A stretch of DNA of 64,000 nucleotides from Tepidimonas sediminis. GTDB lineage: Bacteria; Pseudomonadota; Gammaproteobacteria; Burkholderiales; Burkholderiaceae_C. Below the pieces are notes generated by a model. The model was not told the origin of the DNA and did not search any database. It saw only the letters and a program-made list of their open reading frames with translations. The first letter of the stretch is position 1, and each line of letters begins with the position of its first letter. Both the position numbers and the translations under genes were made by a program. This document shows, piece after piece, positions 38,620-48,553 of this stretch. Location of the stretch: assembly GCF_007556605.1 (NCBI RefSeq), contig NZ_VJND01000013.1, positions 1-64,000 of the forward strand, written 5' to 3'.

Positions 38620-39786
38620 ATGCCGCGCCCGATCCTGGCCACCGTGCACCTCGACGCCCTGCGCCACAACCTGCAGCGCTGCCGCGCCGCCGCCGGCGAG
38701 GCACGCGTGTGGGCGGTCGTCAAGGCCAACGCCTACGGCCACGGCCTCGAGCGCGTCTGGCCGGCGCTGCGCGGCGCCGACGGCTTCGCGCTGCTGGACC
38801 TGGCCGAGGCCGAGCGGCTGCGCGCGCTGGGCTGGCGCGGCCCGATCCTGCTGCTGGAGGGGTGCTTCGAGCCGCGCGACCTGGAGACCTGCTCGCGCCT
38901 CGATCTGTGGCACGTCGTCCACACCGAGGAGCAGATCGACTGGCTGGCGGCGCACAAGACCCACCAGCCGCACCACGTGTTCCTGAAGATGAACTCGGGC
39001 ATGAACCGGCTCGGCTTTCGGCCGGAGGCCTACCGCGCCGCCTGGGCGCGGCTGCAGGCGCTGCCGCAGGTGGGCGAGATCGGGCTGATGACGCACTTTT
39101 CCGACGCCGACGGGCTGCGCCGCGGGCGCGAGGGCGTGCTGCACCAGGTGGAGGCGTTCGTGCGCGCCACGCGCGACCTGCCGGGCGAGCGCAGCCTGTG
39201 CAACAGCGCCGCCACGCTGCGCCACGCCCTTCGGCTGCGCCTGGGCGACGACGGCGGGACGCTGGCCGCCGACTGGGTGCGCGCCGGCATTGCGCTGTAT
39301 GGCAGCGCGCCCGACCACCCGGCGCACGCCGCCGCCGACTGGGGCCTGCGGCCGACGATGACGCTGGCCAGCCGGCTGATCGCCATCCAGCCGGTGGCCG
39401 CCGGCGAGACGGTCGGCTACGGCTCGATCTACACCGCGCCGCGCGCCATGCGCGTGGGCATCGTCGCCTGCGGCTACGCCGACGGCTACCCGCGCCACGC
39501 CAGCCTGTCGCAGGACCACGGCGCGCCGGTGCTGGTGCGCGGCGTGCGCACGCGGCTGGTCGGCCGCGTCAGCATGGACATGCTGGCGGTGGACCTGACC
39601 CCCGTGGAGGCCGCCGGCGGCCCGTGCCGCCCCGGCGACGAGGTGGTGCTGTGGGGCCGCAGCGCCAGCGGTGCGGTGCTGCCGGTGGACGAGGTGGCGC
39701 AGGCTGCCGGCACCATCGCCTACGAGCTGCTGTGCGCGGTGGCCGCGCGCGTGCCGTTCGCCGTGGATGGCGCCGACACCCCCTAG
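38620..39786 (+). CDS. alr: Alanine racemase
   Basis: PLP enzyme interconverting L- and D-alanine for peptidoglycan. The PLP lysine is K35 in [10 protein letters not shown]. The second catalytic base is the tyrosine in [16 protein letters not shown] (about 267). [12 protein letters not shown] and [13 protein letters not shown] are also typical. 388 aa. It could equally be a catabolic DadX, since dadA occurs 15 kb away, but there is no direct linkage. Confidence 0.97.
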
Positions 39787-39789
39787 CCC

Positions 39790-39818
39790 TTGTACTCCGG
39801 GGGGTATGACGCTATACT
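39790..39818 (+). promoter_or_regulatory. Sigma-70 promoter of the RND/DUF2892 operon
   Basis: TTGTAC (39790-39795) and TATACT (39813-39818) are separated by exactly 17 bases. This is the best promoter match I found in the window. It begins 4 bases after the alr stop and ends 23 bases before the start codon of the membrane fusion protein. Confidence 0.75.
39793..39806. promoter_or_regulatory. CsoR/CstR-family-like operator inside the promoter spacer
   Basis: TACTCCGGGGGGTA is a pseudo-palindrome with five of seven pairs matched, of the TACC(C/G)-G-tract-GGTA type bound by CsoR-family repressors, which sense copper or persulfide. It starts inside the -35 hexamer and runs into the spacer, so a bound repressor would block RNA polymerase. 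No CsoR-family gene is in the window. The match was judged by eye. Confidence 0.5.
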
Positions 39819-39841
39819 CGCGTCCAATGGAGGATCAAGCC

Positions 39842-40945
39842 ATGGATCGACGCACGACGCCCTTCCCCCCGCTGGCCCGCCGGCGCTGGCTCGGCGCGGC
39901 CGCAGCCACCGCGCTGCTCGGCGGCGCGCTGCTCGCCCCCGCCTGGGCGCAGGGCGAGGCCGCCGGCCCGCGCGTGCCGGTGGCCGAGGCCGCCCGCCGC
40001 CCGGTCGGCCAGGCGCTGCTGCTGGACGCCACGATCGAAGCGCAGCAGCAGGCCACGCTGGCGGCCCAGGCCAGCGGCCGCATCGTGCAGCTGCACGTCA
40101 AGGCCGGTGACCGCGTGCGCGCCGGGCAGGTGCTGGCGGTGATCGACGACCGCGAGACCACCGCCGGCGTGCAGCGCGCCGGCGGCGCGGTGGCGCAGGC
40201 CGAGGCCGAGCTGCGCAACGCCGAGGCGCACGCCAGGCGCACGCGCGAGCTGCGCGCGCAGGGTTTCGTCTCGCAGGCGGCGCTCGATGCCGCCGAGGCG
40301 CAGGCCGCCGCCGCGCGCGCCGCGCTGCAGCAGGCCAAGGCCGCGCAGTCGCAGGCCGCGCTGGCGCAGGGCTTCACGCGCCTGACCGCGCCGTTCGACG
40401 GCTTCGTGCTGGCCACGCACGCCGAGGCGGGCGACCTGGCGGCGCCGGGCCGTCCGGTGCTGACGGTGTACGCGCCGCAGCCGCTGCGCGCCACCGTGCA
40501 CGTGCCGGCGTCGCAGTCGGCGCTGGCGGAGCGCGCGCAGCGCGTCGAGGTACGCCTGCCCGATGGCCGCTGGGTGCAGCCGGCCGGTCGCAGCCGCCTG
40601 CCGGCGGCCGATCCGGTGGCGCAGACGGTGGAGTGGCGCCTGCCGCTCGTGGCCGCCGATGCGCAGGGCGTGCTGCCGGGGCAGGCGGTCAAGGTGCGCT
40701 TTGCCGCCGGCAGCGACGAGCGGCTGGTGGTGCCGGCCAGCGCCCTGCTGCGTCGCGGCGAGCTGACCGCGGTGTACGTGGCGGCACCGGCCGGGGCGCC
40801 GGCGGGCTTCGTGCTGCGCGCGGTGCGCGTCGGCGCCGACCACGGCGAGGCCGGGATCGAGATCCTGTCGGGCCTGCAGCCGGGCGAGCGCGTGGCGCTC
40901 GATCCGGTGCGCGCGGGGCTGCGCGGTGCGCAGCCGGCGCAGTGA
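39842..40945 (+). CDS. Efflux RND periplasmic adaptor (membrane fusion protein)
   Basis: 367 aa. The twin-arginine-like signal (RRRWLGAAAATALLGGALLAPAWAQ) ends near residue 38. The lipoyl/barrel-sandwich halves are ATLAAQASGRIVQLHVKAGDRVRAGQVLAVID and LTAPFDGFVLATHAEAGDL, separated by a helical hairpin (about 110-180). Beta-barrel and membrane-proximal domains follow (LLRRGELTAVYV, LRAVRVGADHGEAGIEILSGLQPGERV). The ATG at 39842 is preceded by GGAGGA. It bridges the RND pump to an outer-membrane channel not encoded beside it. Confidence 0.94.
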   Translation: MDRRTTPFPPLARRRWLGAAAATALLGGALLAPAWAQGEAAGPRVPVAEAARRPVGQALLLDATIEAQQQATLAAQASGRIVQLHVKAGDRVRAGQVLAVIDDRETTAGVQRAGGAVAQAEAELRNAEAHARRTRELRAQGFVSQAALDAAEAQAAAARAALQQAKAAQSQAALAQGFTRLTAPFDGFVLATHAEAGDLAAPGRPVLTVYAPQPLRATVHVPASQSALAERAQRVEVRLPDGRWVQPAGRSRLPAADPVAQTVEWRLPLVAADAQGVLPGQAVKVRFAAGSDERLVVPASALLRRGELTAVYVAAPAGAPAGFVLRAVRVGADHGEAGIEILSGLQPGERVALDPVRAGLRGAQPAQ

Positions 40946-40985
40946 TCGGCCATCGTCCCTTTCCCCGCATGCAGGAGAACGGCCG

Positions 40986-44282
<3,297 letters not shown>

Positions 44283-44333
44283 GTCCCGTATTCCCGCAAC
44301 CCTGTCCCAACCCTTGCAAGTGAGGAGAGCATC

Positions 44334-44561
44334 ATGACCGTCGAGCGCTGGATCCGTGTGATCGCGGGCCTGTTCGTGTTCCTGTCGGTGGCGCTGGGCG
44401 CGCCGGCCAGCCCGCTGTTCGTCAGCGAGTGGTTCCTGGCCTTCACGGCCTTCGTCGGGCTGAACCTGTTCCAGTTCGGCTTCACCAACTTCTGCCCGCT
44501 GGCCATCATCCTGAAGAAGCTGGGCGTGCCCGAGGCCGCCATCCCGTGCAAGGCCTGCTGA
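44334..44561 (+). CDS. DUF2892 (YgaP-type membrane) protein
   Basis: 75 aa with two hydrophobic helices (about 7-25 and 28-50), followed by NFCPLAIILKKLGVPEAAIPCKAC. This cysteine-containing ending (CPLA and CKAC) is typical of DUF2892 proteins, which accompany rhodanese and sulfur-handling genes. It may sense or carry persulfide in the membrane; that is inference. GAGGAGAG precedes the ATG. Confidence 0.92.
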   Translation: MTVERWIRVIAGLFVFLSVALGAPASPLFVSEWFLAFTAFVGLNLFQFGFTNFCPLAIILKKLGVPEAAIPCKAC

Positions 44562-44581
44562 GGCCCGAGACGGAGCGCACG

Positions 44582-45598
44582 ATGAACGGTGCCCATCCCA
44601 CCCCGCTGAAATTCCTGCACCCGGGCTGGTTCACGCCGGTGATGGGCCTGAGCGGCCTGGCGCTGGCGTGGCACGCCGCCGGCCCCGTGCTGGGCCCCTG
44701 GGCCGAGGGCGCGGCGCTGGTCATCGGCGCGCTGGCCGCGGCGGTGTTCGTCGCGGTGCTGGCCGGCTCGCTGCTGCGCTGGCGGCGCCACCCCGAGGCC
44801 GTCGCCGAGGACCTGCGCCACCCGGTGCGGCACGCCTTCGTCGCCGCCGCCCCGGTGGGCCTGCTGCTGCTGGCCACTTGGCTGCAGGCCGTGGGGCTGG
44901 CGCTGCCGCTGGCGCACGCGCTGTGGTGGATCGGCTCGATCGGCCAGCTCGGCGTCACCGTCTGGGCGCTGGGGCGGTGGCTGGCGCCCACCGTGGCGCA
45001 CGCGCCGGATGCGCAGTCGCTGTGGAACGGCATCACGCCGGTGCTCTACATCCCGGTGGTCGGCAACGTCGTGGCGCCGCTGGCCGGCGTCGGCTTCGAG
45101 CACGCGATGTGGTCGGCGGTGCACTTCGGCATCGGGGTGTTCTTCTGGCCGGTGGTGTTTGCGCTGCTGGTGGCGCGGCGCCTGGCGCACGGGCCGATCC
45201 CGCCGCGGCTGCACCCGACCTGGTTCATCTCGCTGGCGCCGGCGGCGGTGGTGGGGCTGGGCGCGCTGCGCTTCGGCTGGCCGCCGGGGGTAGCCGCCGC
45301 CGTGTGGGGCGTGGGCCTGTTCATGCTGCTGTGGGTCGGCACGCAGGCGCGGCGCTTCTTCGCCCAGCCGTTCGCGCTGCCGTTCTGGGCGGTGTCGTTC
45401 CCGCTGGCGGCCTTCACCAGCCTGAGCTTCAAGCTGGCCGCGGCGCTGGCGCTGCCCGCGCTGCAGGGGGCGGCGTTGGCGCTGCTGGCGCTGGCGTCGG
45501 TGGTGATCGCGGCGCTGGCCCTGGCCACCGTCAAGGGGCTGCGCGAGGGCACCCTGCTGGCACCGGAGCCGGTGGCGCCGGTGGTGGCGGCGCCGTGA
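44582..45598 (+). CDS. TDT/SLAC1-TehA family anion channel or exporter
   Basis: 338 aa with about ten membrane helices. The opening FLHPGWFTPVMGLSGLALAWHAAG is the TDT signature (F-x-P-x-WF-x-x-VMG-x-x-GL). Members carry tellurite, C4-dicarboxylates, sulfite or small anions; the sulfur-linked neighbours favour sulfite-like substrates here. It begins 20 bases after the DUF2892 gene and ends at a hairpin. Confidence 0.9.
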   Translation: MNGAHPTPLKFLHPGWFTPVMGLSGLALAWHAAGPVLGPWAEGAALVIGALAAAVFVAVLAGSLLRWRRHPEAVAEDLRHPVRHAFVAAAPVGLLLLATWLQAVGLALPLAHALWWIGSIGQLGVTVWALGRWLAPTVAHAPDAQSLWNGITPVLYIPVVGNVVAPLAGVGFEHAMWSAVHFGIGVFFWPVVFALLVARRLAHGPIPPRLHPTWFISLAPAAVVGLGALRFGWPPGVAAAVWGVGLFMLLWVGTQARRFFAQPFALPFWAVSFPLAAFTSLSFKLAAALALPALQGAALALLALASVVIAALALATVKGLREGTLLAPEPVAPVVAAP

Positions 45599-45617
45599 GA
45601 CGGCCGCTCCGGCCGTC
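45599..45617 (+). terminator. 7-bp hairpin after the TDT gene
   Basis: GACGGCC and GGCCGTC flank a GCTCC loop immediately after the stop codon of the TDT gene. No T-run follows. It may mark the operon end; a TAGCAT box at 45659-45664 could be a separate promoter for the next gene. Confidence 0.4.
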
Positions 45618-45671
45618 ACCCGTGCGACGCGGACGCGGCGTGCGCCCGCGCCGCGCGGCTAGCATCGCACG

Positions 45672-46424
45672 ATGGACCTGCCTCACGCCGCGCTGCTGAC
45701 GGCGGCCGCCTTGGCCGCCGGCGCGCTCAACGCCATCGCCGGCGGCGGCAGCTTCCTGACCTTTCCGGCGCTCGTCTTCACCGGCGTGCCGCCGATCGTG
45801 GCCAACGCCACCAGCGCGCTGGCGGTCAGCCCCGGCTACCTCGGCAGCACGCTGGGCCTGCGGCGCGAGCTGGGCGCGCTGCCGGCCGCGCGGCTGCGCC
45901 GGGAAGCGCTGCTGGCCGCCGGCGGGGGCGTGCTCGGCGCGCTGCTGCTGCTCGTCACGCCGCCGGCGGCGTTTCGCGCGCTGGTGCCATGGCTGCTGGC
46001 GCTGGCCACCGCGGTCTTCGTCGCCGGCCCGCACCTGGTGCGGCGGCTCACCCGCGGCGACGCCCGCGACCATCCGCGCGCGCGCGCCTGGGGCCTGCTG
46101 GCGGTGGCGGTCTACGGGGGCTACTTCAACGGCGGCCTGGGCATCCTGCTGATGGCGCTGTACGCCGCCACCGGGGAGACCGACGTCCACCGCGCCAATG
46201 CGCTGAAGAACCTGAACTCGCTGGTGCTGTCGCTGCTGTCGGTGGCCACCTTCGCGCTGGCCGGGGCGATCGCCTGGGGGCCGGCGCTGCTGATGGCCGC
46301 CGCCGCCACGGCCGGCGGCTACCTGGGCGCGCGCGGGGCGCGGCGCCTGCCCGCGCGCGCGGTGCGCGCGGTCGTCATCGTCACCGGGCTGGCGATGACG
46401 GCGGCGTTCGCGTGGCGCGGCTGA
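45672..46424 (+). CDS. TauE/SafE family sulfite/anion permease
   Basis: 250 aa with about eight membrane helices in two related halves. AAGALNAIAGGGSFLTFPALVFTGVPPIVANATSALAV and GGYFNGGLGILLMALYAATG are the paired TauE/SafE motifs. The family exports sulfite or sulfoacetate-like anions. It is on the same strand as the preceding RND/DUF2892/TDT genes with a 73-base gap, possibly with its own promoter. Confidence 0.93.
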   Translation: MDLPHAALLTAAALAAGALNAIAGGGSFLTFPALVFTGVPPIVANATSALAVSPGYLGSTLGLRRELGALPAARLRREALLAAGGGVLGALLLLVTPPAAFRALVPWLLALATAVFVAGPHLVRRLTRGDARDHPRARAWGLLAVAVYGGYFNGGLGILLMALYAATGETDVHRANALKNLNSLVLSLLSVATFALAGAIAWGPALLMAAAATAGGYLGARGARRLPARAVRAVVIVTGLAMTAAFAWRG

Positions 46425-46879: not shown

Positions 46880-48553
46880 GTGGACGGACCGGTCTTCGAC
46901 CACGTCATCGTCGGCGCCGGCACGGCCGGCTGCCTGCTGGCCAACCGCCTGAGCGCCGACCCGGCGCGGCGCGTGCTGCTGCTGGAAGCCGGCGGACGCG
47001 ACGACTACCTCTGGATCCACATCCCGGTCGGCTACCTGTACTGCATCGGCAACCCGCGCACCGACTGGCTGTACCAGACCGAACCCGACGCCGGCCTCAA
47101 CGGCCGGCGGCTGCGCTACCCGCGCGGCAAGGTGCTGGGCGGCTGCTCCAGCATCAACGGCATGATCTACATGCGCGGCCAGGCGCGCGACTACGACGGC
47201 TGGGCCGCGCACACCGGCGACGCGGCGTGGTCGTGGGCGAACTGCCTGCCCGACTTCAAGGCGCACGAGCAGCACTGGCGGCTCGACGTCGGCACGGACG
47301 AGGCCTTCGCCGCGCTGCACGGCCACCGGCGTACCGGCAGCACCGGCGAATGGCGCGTCGAGCGCCAGCGCCTGCGCTGGGCGATCCTCGACGCCTTCGC
47401 GCAGGCGGCGCAGCAGGCCGGCATTCCCGCCACCGACGACTTCAACCGCGGCGACAACGAGGGCGTCGGCTACTTCGAGGTCAACCAGCGCGCCGGGTGG
47501 CGCTGGAACGCGGCCAAGGCCTTTCTGCATCCGGTGGCGCGGCGACCCAACCTGACGGTGTGGACCGGCGCCCACGTGGCCGGCCTGCGGCTGGAGGGAG
47601 GCGAGGGCGCGCCGCTGCGCTGCACCGGCGTGGAGGTGGTGCGCGACGGCCAGCGCCTGACGGTGCACGCGGCACGCGAGGTGACGCTGGCCGCCGGCGC
47701 GATCGGCAGCCCGCAGATCCTGCAGCTGTCGGGCATCGGGCCGGCGGCGTGGCTGCGGCCCCTGGGCATCCCGGTGCGCGCGGACCTGCCCGGCGTCGGC
47801 GCCAACCTGCAGGACCACCTGCAGATCCGCGCGGTCTACCGCGTCCATGGCGCACGCACGCTCAACACGCTGGCCCACAGCGCCTGGGGCCGGCTGCGCA
47901 TCGGGCTGGAGTACCTTTTGTGGCGGCGCGGCCCGATGAGCATGGCGCCGAGCCAGCTCGGCGCCTTCACGCGCAGCCGGCCGGACCGCCCCTGGCCCGA
48001 CGTCGAGTTCCATGTGCAGCCGCTCAGCCTCGACGCCTTCGGCGAACCGCTGCACCCCTTCGACGCCATCACCGCCAGCGTCTGCAACCTCAACCCGGGC
48101 AGCCGCGGCACCGTGCGCATCCGCAGCCCGCGCTGGGAAGATGCGCCGGCCATCGCACCGAACTACCTCTCCACCGCCGAAGACCGGCAGGTCGCCGCCG
48201 ACAGCCTGCGGCTGGCGCGGCGCATCGTCACCCAGCCGGCGCTGGCACGCTACCGGCCGGAGGAAATCCGTCCCGGCCCGCAATACCAGACCGACGAGGA
48301 GCTGGCGCGGCTCGCTGGCGACATCGGCACCACCATCTTCCACCCGGTCGGCACCACCGCGATGGGGCCGGACGGCGACCCGATGGCCGTCACCGACAGT
48401 CGCCTGCGCGTGCGCGACGGCCGCGGCGGCCGCATCGGCGGCCTGCGCGTGGTCGACGCCGGCATCATGCCCACCATCACCAGCGGCAACACCAACAGCC
48501 CGACGCTGATGATCGCCGAAAAGGCGGCGCGCTGGATCCTGGCCGGCGACTGA
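46880..48553 (+). CDS. GMC-family FAD-dependent oxidoreductase (choline/alcohol dehydrogenase-like)
   Basis: 557 aa from GTG 46880. The FAD-binding motif DHVIVGAGTAGCLLANRLS is at about 7-25, then YPRGKVLGGCSSINGMIYMRGQ, GAIGSPQILQLSGIGP, and the C-terminal active-site region FHPVGTTAMG with TNSPTLMIAEKAA. It oxidises an alcohol (choline, a polyethylene glycol or another primary alcohol) to an aldehyde. No betaine-aldehyde dehydrogenase is adjacent, so choline is not specially supported. Confidence 0.92.
   Translation: MDGPVFDHVIVGAGTAGCLLANRLSADPARRVLLLEAGGRDDYLWIHIPVGYLYCIGNPRTDWLYQTEPDAGLNGRRLRYPRGKVLGGCSSINGMIYMRGQARDYDGWAAHTGDAAWSWANCLPDFKAHEQHWRLDVGTDEAFAALHGHRRTGSTGEWRVERQRLRWAILDAFAQAAQQAGIPATDDFNRGDNEGVGYFEVNQRAGWRWNAAKAFLHPVARRPNLTVWTGAHVAGLRLEGGEGAPLRCTGVEVVRDGQRLTVHAAREVTLAAGAIGSPQILQLSGIGPAAWLRPLGIPVRADLPGVGANLQDHLQIRAVYRVHGARTLNTLAHSAWGRLRIGLEYLLWRRGPMSMAPSQLGAFTRSRPDRPWPDVEFHVQPLSLDAFGEPLHPFDAITASVCNLNPGSRGTVRIRSPRWEDAPAIAPNYLSTAEDRQVAADSLRLARRIVTQPALARYRPEEIRPGPQYQTDEELARLAGDIGTTIFHPVGTTAMGPDGDPMAVTDSRLRVRDGRGGRIGGLRVVDAGIMPTITSGNTNSPTLMIAEKAARWILAGD

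Follow-up and report, generated by a model that had tools for sequence, protein, structure and literature searches.

A CsoR-type box ahead of an RND pump operon in Tepidimonas sediminis: a probable sulfane-sulfur-inducible system for envelope detoxification

The 64,000-nucleotide stretch of Tepidimonas sediminis DNA examined in this study (the window, on contig C5 of a genome of 2.53 Mb in 35 contigs) carries a run of five genes for a membrane fusion protein (MFP), a resistance-nodulation-division (RND) permease, a DUF2892 protein, a TDT channel and a TauE/SafE permease, all on the + strand at 39842-46424. These genes probably form an envelope detoxification operon that is induced by sulfane sulfur (persulfide or polysulfide) and controlled by an unusual subfamily of CsoR repressors. 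Sulfur-linked control of the operon is well supported by sequence comparison, which backs the gene assignments, a conserved box at the promoter, CsoR genes with conserved boxes of their own, a neighbourhood of sulfur genes in relatives, and the mutual exclusivity of the box and ArsR genes. The features of the operon are as follows.

39790..39818, + strand: promoter, with a -35-like TTGTAC (39790-39795), a -10-like TATACT (39813-39818) and a spacer of 17
39793..39806, no strand assigned: putative CsoR-type operator TACTCCGGGGGGTA, with the palindromic frame TACYCC-NN-GGRGTA, covering the end of the -35 element and part of the spacer
39842..40945, + strand: MFP, the RND periplasmic adaptor subunit (367 aa; HlyD-type Pfam match; without cysteine)
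40986..44282, + strand: RND permease (1098 aa; ACR_tran Pfam match; without cysteine)
44334..44561, + strand: DUF2892 / YgaP-like transmembrane protein (75 aa; YgaP-like_TM Pfam match)
44582..45598, + strand: TDT family anion channel, SLAC1/TehA-like (338 aa; SLAC1 Pfam match)
45672..46424, + strand: TauE/SafE-family permease, the accessory fifth gene (250 aa)

An initial annotation of this DNA had described five genes running in this order and direction from a near-consensus promoter with a CsoR/CstR-like operator in its -35 region and spacer. The genes stand as described, with each family backed by Pfam profiles (for TauE, PF01925 at 129.8 bits against a gathering score of 32.6), and so does the box. 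The promoter is further from consensus than had been claimed, with its -35 element agreeing with TTGACA at 3 of 6 positions and its -10 element with TATAAT at 5 of 6, and a sigma-70 scan made no call there. GGAGG precedes the ATG of MFP. The operator TACTCCGGGGGGTA begins 7 bases past the stop codon of the alanine racemase gene and is the sole full match to the consensus TACYCCNNGGRGTA within the window; since it overlaps the -35 element and the spacer, a repressor bound there would be expected to block RNA polymerase. Its form, TACTCC-GG-GGGGTA, fits the form of a CsoR-family operator, stated to be a pseudo-palindrome with a run of at least four G or C (PMC10318464).

The box is strongly conserved at this position. 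Among 11 genomes of the genus, all of which contain the RND ortholog, the box was found at the MFP promoter, ~1.2 kb upstream of RND, in 10, which are all of the genomes that hold the promoter; it is missing from the eleventh (G007) because the contig starts at RND, inside the operon. TACTCC-NN-GGGGTA is identical across all ten aligned promoters in otherwise variable intergenic DNA, with a -10 element of TATACT in nine and TACACT in one. Gene order, whose absence had been named as a refutation of the initial reading, is also conserved: the five genes are complete, in order and on a single contig in 7 of the 11 genomes (G000, G001, G002, G003, G005, G006 and G010), while the run is interrupted in G004, split over two contigs in G008 and truncated in G007 and G009. 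The interruption in G004 (L147 7068-8791) consists of open reading frames (ORFs) of the HDOD and EAL types between TDT and TauE.

A CsoR-family gene elsewhere in the genome, with a like box at its own promoter, had been named as a check on the operator, and two CsoR-family genes were found, CsoR1 (C32:15688-16011) and CsoR2 (C32:30281-30523), which match the CsoR/RcnR (DUF156) profile PF02583 at 72.0 and 66.0 bits, respectively, against a gathering score of 22.8. The like box belongs to CsoR1, which points away from the genes for a DUF302 protein and a FadL-type porin (L003 7689-10129, contig C32), with TACCCTAGGGGGTA in the divergent intergenic region. DUF302 adjoins CsoR1 in 9 of the 10 genus genomes with a CsoR1 match (the tenth, L133, lies at a contig end), an intergenic island around ACCCTACCC-CTAGGGTAA recurs in all 9 aligned genus regions, and the exact 14-mer TACCCYCTAGGGTA is present in 6 of these and has 1 or 2 changes in the other 3. 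A role of DUF302 and FadL in sulfur handling, perhaps the transport of hydrophobic sulfur, is raised here as a question. CsoR2 directly precedes a gene for a fusion of persulfide dioxygenase (PDO) and rhodanese, an arrangement kept in 10 of 10 genus genomes, and has its own distinct island, ATACCAT-NN-GRGTAT-like, in 10 of 10 genus regions (L004 6241-7670 in the window genome). The fusion protein matches BpPRF (PDB 5ve3) over residues 5-335 with an E value of 6.7e-67 and human ETHE1 at 2.7e-65. A third CsoR type adjoins the pump genes in relatives: in the related-locus set, made up of the 80 best among at least 594 matching stretches, tblastn placed a CsoR gene beside the operon in 9 loci (8 downstream, 1 upstream). 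One locus, L007, comes from the same genome as G006, with identical CsoR coordinates, and is hence not independent.

These CsoR proteins share a distinctive cysteine pair. Two cysteines are spaced as C-x23-C in 43 of 47 CsoR rows, the exceptions being L125 and L169 (copper-type), L181 (second cysteine lost) and L178 (a poorly delimited ORF). In a tree of 45 rows, the DUF302-linked type A and the PDO-linked type B each fall on one side of a branch (support 97/93 and 93/89); type C, linked to the pump, does not come out as a clade of its own. Aligned with the solved CsoR 4m1p, CsoR1 keeps the cysteine and has serine at the positions of His61 and Cys65, which together with that cysteine form the copper site of CsoR; with these residues absent, the suggestion of copper sensing is not supported. 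The copper pattern C-x24-H-x3-C/H occurs in just 2 of the 47 rows, L125 and L169, both of them other CsoR genes. The persulfide sensor CstR has a C-x28-C spacing, which is likewise confined to these two copper-type rows. Copper and formaldehyde readings of CsoR1 were set aside, the NCBIfam RicR, FrmR and RcnR models scoring far under their cut-offs. On sequence grounds, the C-x23-C proteins are an unusual subfamily with neither the copper-sensor nor the CstR spacing, and their gene contexts and boxes appear to agree with CstR-like targets (TauE, PDO/rhodanese, SQR).

Beyond the genus, the box and ArsR genes appear to replace each other. Promoters could be scored in 73 of the 80 related loci (L023 and L048 are cut upstream; L033, L055, L057, L069 and L084 lack an MFP call), with MFP starts extrapolated from tblastn and the score being the agreement with TACYCCNNGGRGTA at its 12 informative positions. 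Where RND is at least 70% identical, 9 of 17 loci have scores of 11 or 12, compared to 0 of 56 below 70%, a line chosen after the pattern had been seen and under which L022 (69.9%, score 9, CsoR gene present) falls; random stretches of the same loci reached 11 in 6 of 3650 cases and 9 in 296 of 3650. Near loci score at least 9 in all 14 cases where no ArsR gene lies upstream, compared to 7 or 8 in the three cases where one does (L013, L015, L016), and more distant relatives lack the box and often contain an upstream ArsR gene. None of the 73 loci combines a box scoring at least 11 with an ArsR gene in the 1.5 kb upstream: 30 have ArsR alone, 9 have the box alone and 34 have neither (Fisher p = 0.0085, with p values only indicative because the loci are related by descent). 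A second sample, partly overlapping the first, comprised 28 inspected loci from the family, in which 61 of 150 genomes have the ortholog at E <= 1e-290; apart from L205, which lacks MFP, and the unusable L183 and L189, every one of the 21 loci whose RND is ~70% identical or closer scores at least 9 (8 of them 11 or 12), and the distant L206-L209 score 7 or 8 and are preceded by an opposite-strand ArsR gene. The genome of L016 has an ArsR gene, no box and no CsoR that could be found. This distribution of CsoR-type box and ArsR on the same pump looks like an exchange of regulators. Directly upstream of the pump in two near-clade loci (L013 5442-6738, L015 5449-6745), an ArsR gene that is BigR-like by eye stands divergent from a PDO-like metallo-hydrolase gene, and the genomes of both loci retain CsoR1-type genes elsewhere (L174 and L170, respectively).

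The link to sulfur proved stronger than the initial annotation had claimed, with genes for sulfide-quinone reductase (SQR), PDO-like, rhodanese, thioredoxin and ArsR-type proteins near the orthologous pump. ORFs were clustered up to 8 kb on each side of the 80 loci, on both strands, with one representative per cluster checked against Pfam; the clusters include ArsR (32 loci), SQR (23), OEP/TolC (19), rhodanese (11), thioredoxin (11), PDO-like metallo-hydrolase (9), TDT (8), CsoR (8), OsmC (7) and glutaredoxin (5). SQR is found inside the pump genes themselves, between MFP and RND in L031, L051, L054 and L064 (in the order MFP-SQR-RND-DUF2892 in L031, L051 and L064) and between RND and DUF2892 in L013, L014, L015, L018, L019, L022 and L086. 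Searched against solved structures, the flavoprotein of L013 hits sulfide-quinone reductases at 6.6e-181, and L022 has the order MFP-RND-SQR-DUF2892-CsoR-PDO/rhodanese. Six loci (e.g. L058 6263-6514) have an additional, distinct DUF2892/YgaP-TM gene in their flanks, on the opposite strand in 5. Given this association with sulfide-oxidizing enzymes in relatives, the pump probably serves to protect the cell against reactive sulfur. The window genome encodes SoxB, above the curated cut-off, and a flavocytochrome c sulfide dehydrogenase (FCSD); with these two enzymes it probably oxidizes reduced sulfur, though the operon lacks SQR. When this genome was searched with an SQR fragment of 120 residues, the top hit, at 28% identity, proved to be FCSD, and no full-length SQR search was made.

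The pump proteins are well conserved at functional residues. D442, D443 and R1001 of the permease are unchanged in 80 of 80 aligned sequences (here and in the next two counts the window is included), and we take them to be the counterparts of D407, D408 and K940 of AcrB; with these residues kept throughout, the permease should be proton-driven. Two adjacent aspartates in transmembrane helix 4 (TM4), which we take as the mark of HAE-type pumps, and a basic residue in TM10 place it among that type. Cys54 of DUF2892 is unchanged in 46 of 46 sequences, and cysteine is absent from 57 of 80 RND sequences and from 67 of 76 MFP rows (counted after residue 35). As far as is known, RND proteins are in general cysteine-poor; the idea that the cysteine-free pump is an adaptation to persulfides was set aside, the comparison with paralogues being rough (ORFs with extra N-terminal frame).

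The operon lies between two further genes:

38620..39786: alanine racemase gene, the upstream neighbour
46880..48553: GMC oxidoreductase gene, the downstream neighbour

ORF clusters matching alanine racemase and GMC oxidoreductase each occur in 5 of the 80 related loci (GMC on the same side in 4), and with this recurrence the site of the operon is partly conserved.

Several described systems resemble parts of this operon. In Azospira suillum PS, MFP, SQR, RND pump and a small gene (Dsui_3440-3443) form one operon with high expression in the presence of H2S and a flag from transposon sequencing (Tn-seq), and a separate DUF2892 gene is up about tenfold (PMC5358917). The likeness is one of make-up: the MFP-SQR-RND-DUF2892 order noted above recurs in relatives, whereas the window operon lacks SQR, has TDT and TauE, and stands behind a CsoR-type box; the words 'CsoR' and 'repressor' appear nowhere in the main text of the Azospira study. 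The cst operon of Staphylococcus aureus is also under a CsoR-family repressor, CstR, with TauE, persulfide dioxygenase/rhodanese and SQR as targets (a cst-like gene set is described in PMC7315123). In contrast to cst, the main presumed targets here are the RND pump, TDT and DUF2892, the cysteines are spaced C-x23-C rather than C-x28-C, and the presumed regulon extends over at least two promoters, with a third under CsoR2. Sulfane-sulfur-responsive ArsR repressors (BigR, SqrR, SoxR, sHdrR) reportedly act on sqr, pdo and rhd, and RND pumps and TauE have been named as their likely targets (PMC12423496). An ArsR-family gene lies no more than 1.5 kb upstream of the pump in 30 of the 73 scored loci, its sulfane-sulfur-sensing class being assigned by eye only; in most of the window clade, the CsoR-type box takes its place, and tblastn with two ArsR queries found no ArsR-type repressor at the window operon, where a BigR/SqrR-type operon would have one. 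TTHA1953 of Thermus thermophilus is a CsoR-family repressor of sulfur oxidation (sox) genes, not copper genes (PMC10318464), that differs in the spacing of its cysteines, C39/C68, and in its operator TACNNTACNNNNGTANNGTA, which lacks a G-tract. The CsoR2-linked PDO-rhodanese is the same kind of fusion as BpPRF and is encoded on another contig than the window operon. Finally, an RND MFP and an RND pump are listed as raised in Allochromatium on pyrite (PMC11267869).

The association of this pump with sulfur is therefore partly known already, and the suggestion in the initial annotation that the system is undescribed holds only in part, given the Azospira operon of the same make-up and the named ArsR targets. 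A search of one literature library, at the level of titles and abstract openings, found no CsoR-controlled RND operon. Neither the CsoR-type operator, nor the C-x23-C subfamily with its three gene contexts, nor the exchange of ArsR and CsoR was found in that search. As a whole, the earlier interpretation as a sulfur-stress export cassette is partly supported.

It is also important to note a number of observations that weigh against the proposed sulfane-sulfur-inducible operon. Within the 64 kb window, tblastn with 2 SQR, 2 ArsR and 3 CsoR queries (E <= 1e-3) found no SQR, ArsR or CsoR gene; the operon itself is without SQR, and the sequence of the RND pump gives no sign of its substrate. Outside the genus, L009 is the only locus in which TauE comes right after TDT, which makes it a weakly tied fifth gene. 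The box is not enriched genome-wide, with 20 matches in the 11 genus genomes against 27 for a reversed control and 40 palindromic sites in 150 family genomes against 41; enrichment was accordingly dropped as an argument, and the signal of the box is its position, 7 of the 40 family-wide sites standing 1.1-1.25 kb upstream of the RND match start. Genus matches in G002, G004 and G006 lie ~2.1 kb past the CsoR1 gene, probably in coding sequence. The site is often degenerate where a CsoR gene adjoins (scores of 9 or 10 in L014, L017, L018, L022 and L086), 2 of 8 CsoR1-type regions outside the genus (L158, L161) lack a TAC-N8-GTA site, and, of the two genomes among 19 searched in which no CsoR was found (L016 and L021), the L021 draft has an 11-of-12 site. 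The L020 draft genome yielded only a CsoR2-type gene, and the cognate repressor is uncertain because the right half of the pump box also resembles the CsoR2 box. In Azospira, deletion of the operon left the rate of H2S oxidation unchanged, and the authors preferred export of metal sulfides (PMC5358917).

There are several alternative explanations for these patterns. The system could be the same in all respects except that CsoR2 is the regulator, which seems rather doubtful: CsoR2 stands immediately ahead of PDO-rhodanese, its box shares the ending GRGTAT with the pump box and its type is the only one found in the L020 genome, but the left half of its box is TACCAT (TACTAT in one region), not TACYCC. 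The C/G tracts of the pump box are closer to the CsoR1 box, and in the draft genome of L009 (G013), where a CsoR1-type gene was the only CsoR found and no CsoR2-type gene was detected, TACCCTAGGGGGTA serves as pump box and recurs as the CsoR1-type box (L166), the two being identical over 14 bases. A TACCC...GTA site with a G-tract is present in 5 of the 8 CsoR1-type regions outside the genus (L162, L163, L166, L170, L174), and L168 has TACCCCTTACGGTA. CsoR1 is favoured as the most likely repressor at the pump box, with CsoR2 a live rival.

An ordinary multidrug or lipophile RND pump with organic cargo, placed under sulfane-sulfur control since thiol stress serves as a general alarm, is unlikely. 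The best PDB matches of the permease are multidrug pumps, including MexK, MdtB, MdtF, CmeB and AcrB, and sulfane sulfur reportedly acts on MarR-family repressors linked to drug resistance; however, across many genera the pump is encoded in operons with SQR and close to genes for PDO-like proteins and sulfur-type regulators, which would not be expected of a generalist pump, and it is single-copy in 59 of the 61 ortholog-bearing family genomes (E <= 1e-290). Efflux of metals or sulfide-complexed metals, the preference of the Azospira authors already mentioned, is very unlikely here. ZneA (CzcA-like) is among the weaker PDB relatives of the permease and 5 of the 80 loci have a cation P-type ATPase cluster in their flanks, where most clusters are without annotation and further metal genes are possible, but the adjacent TM4 aspartates are of the HAE type and the window permease contains no cysteine. 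A copper-responsive operon under a true CsoR, for which a CsoR-family regulator and a G-tract operator would speak, is hardly tenable in view of the serines at the copper site of CsoR1 and the confinement of the copper pattern to L125 and L169.

Under the preferred reading of a sulfane-sulfur-inducible operon, we infer the pairing of repressor and box, the inducer, all cargoes and the role of DUF2892. In the resting state, a CsoR-family repressor, most likely CsoR1, would sit on TACTCCGGGGGGTA and block the -35 element. Oxidation of sulfide or thiosulfate by FCSD and SoxB would raise persulfides, which would react with the cysteine pair of the repressor and cause it to leave the DNA, so that the operon would be transcribed along with DUF302-FadL; PDO-rhodanese would probably be induced via the sibling repressor CsoR2 and would convert sulfane sulfur to sulfite and thiosulfate. 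Candidate inner-membrane exits for sulfite or thiosulfate are TDT and TauE, and the MFP-RND pump, with a TolC from elsewhere, may expel sulfur species (polysulfide, glutathione polysulfane or S0) from the periplasm or membrane. The invariant Cys54 of DUF2892 suggests that this protein may hand on sulfur at the membrane.

To our knowledge, it is unsettled how sulfide-oxidizing bacteria export polysulfide or elemental sulfur, and a pump whose genes recur in the same operon as SQR and in the vicinity of sulfur-type repressors offers a direct, testable candidate for this exit. It can be proposed, tentatively, that MFP-RND is the exporter so far missing for polysulfide or zero-valent sulfur, taking the product of SQR or FCSD from the membrane or periplasm out via TolC, and that Proteobacteria have re-wired this pump between ArsR-type sensors and new C-x23-C CsoR sensors of sulfane sulfur. 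On the known theme of sulfane-sulfur-responsive detoxification operons, what is distinctive here is the combination of this repressor subfamily with an RND pump, whose cargo is the interesting question, and the C-x23-C subfamily widens the set of likely persulfide sensors in Proteobacteria.

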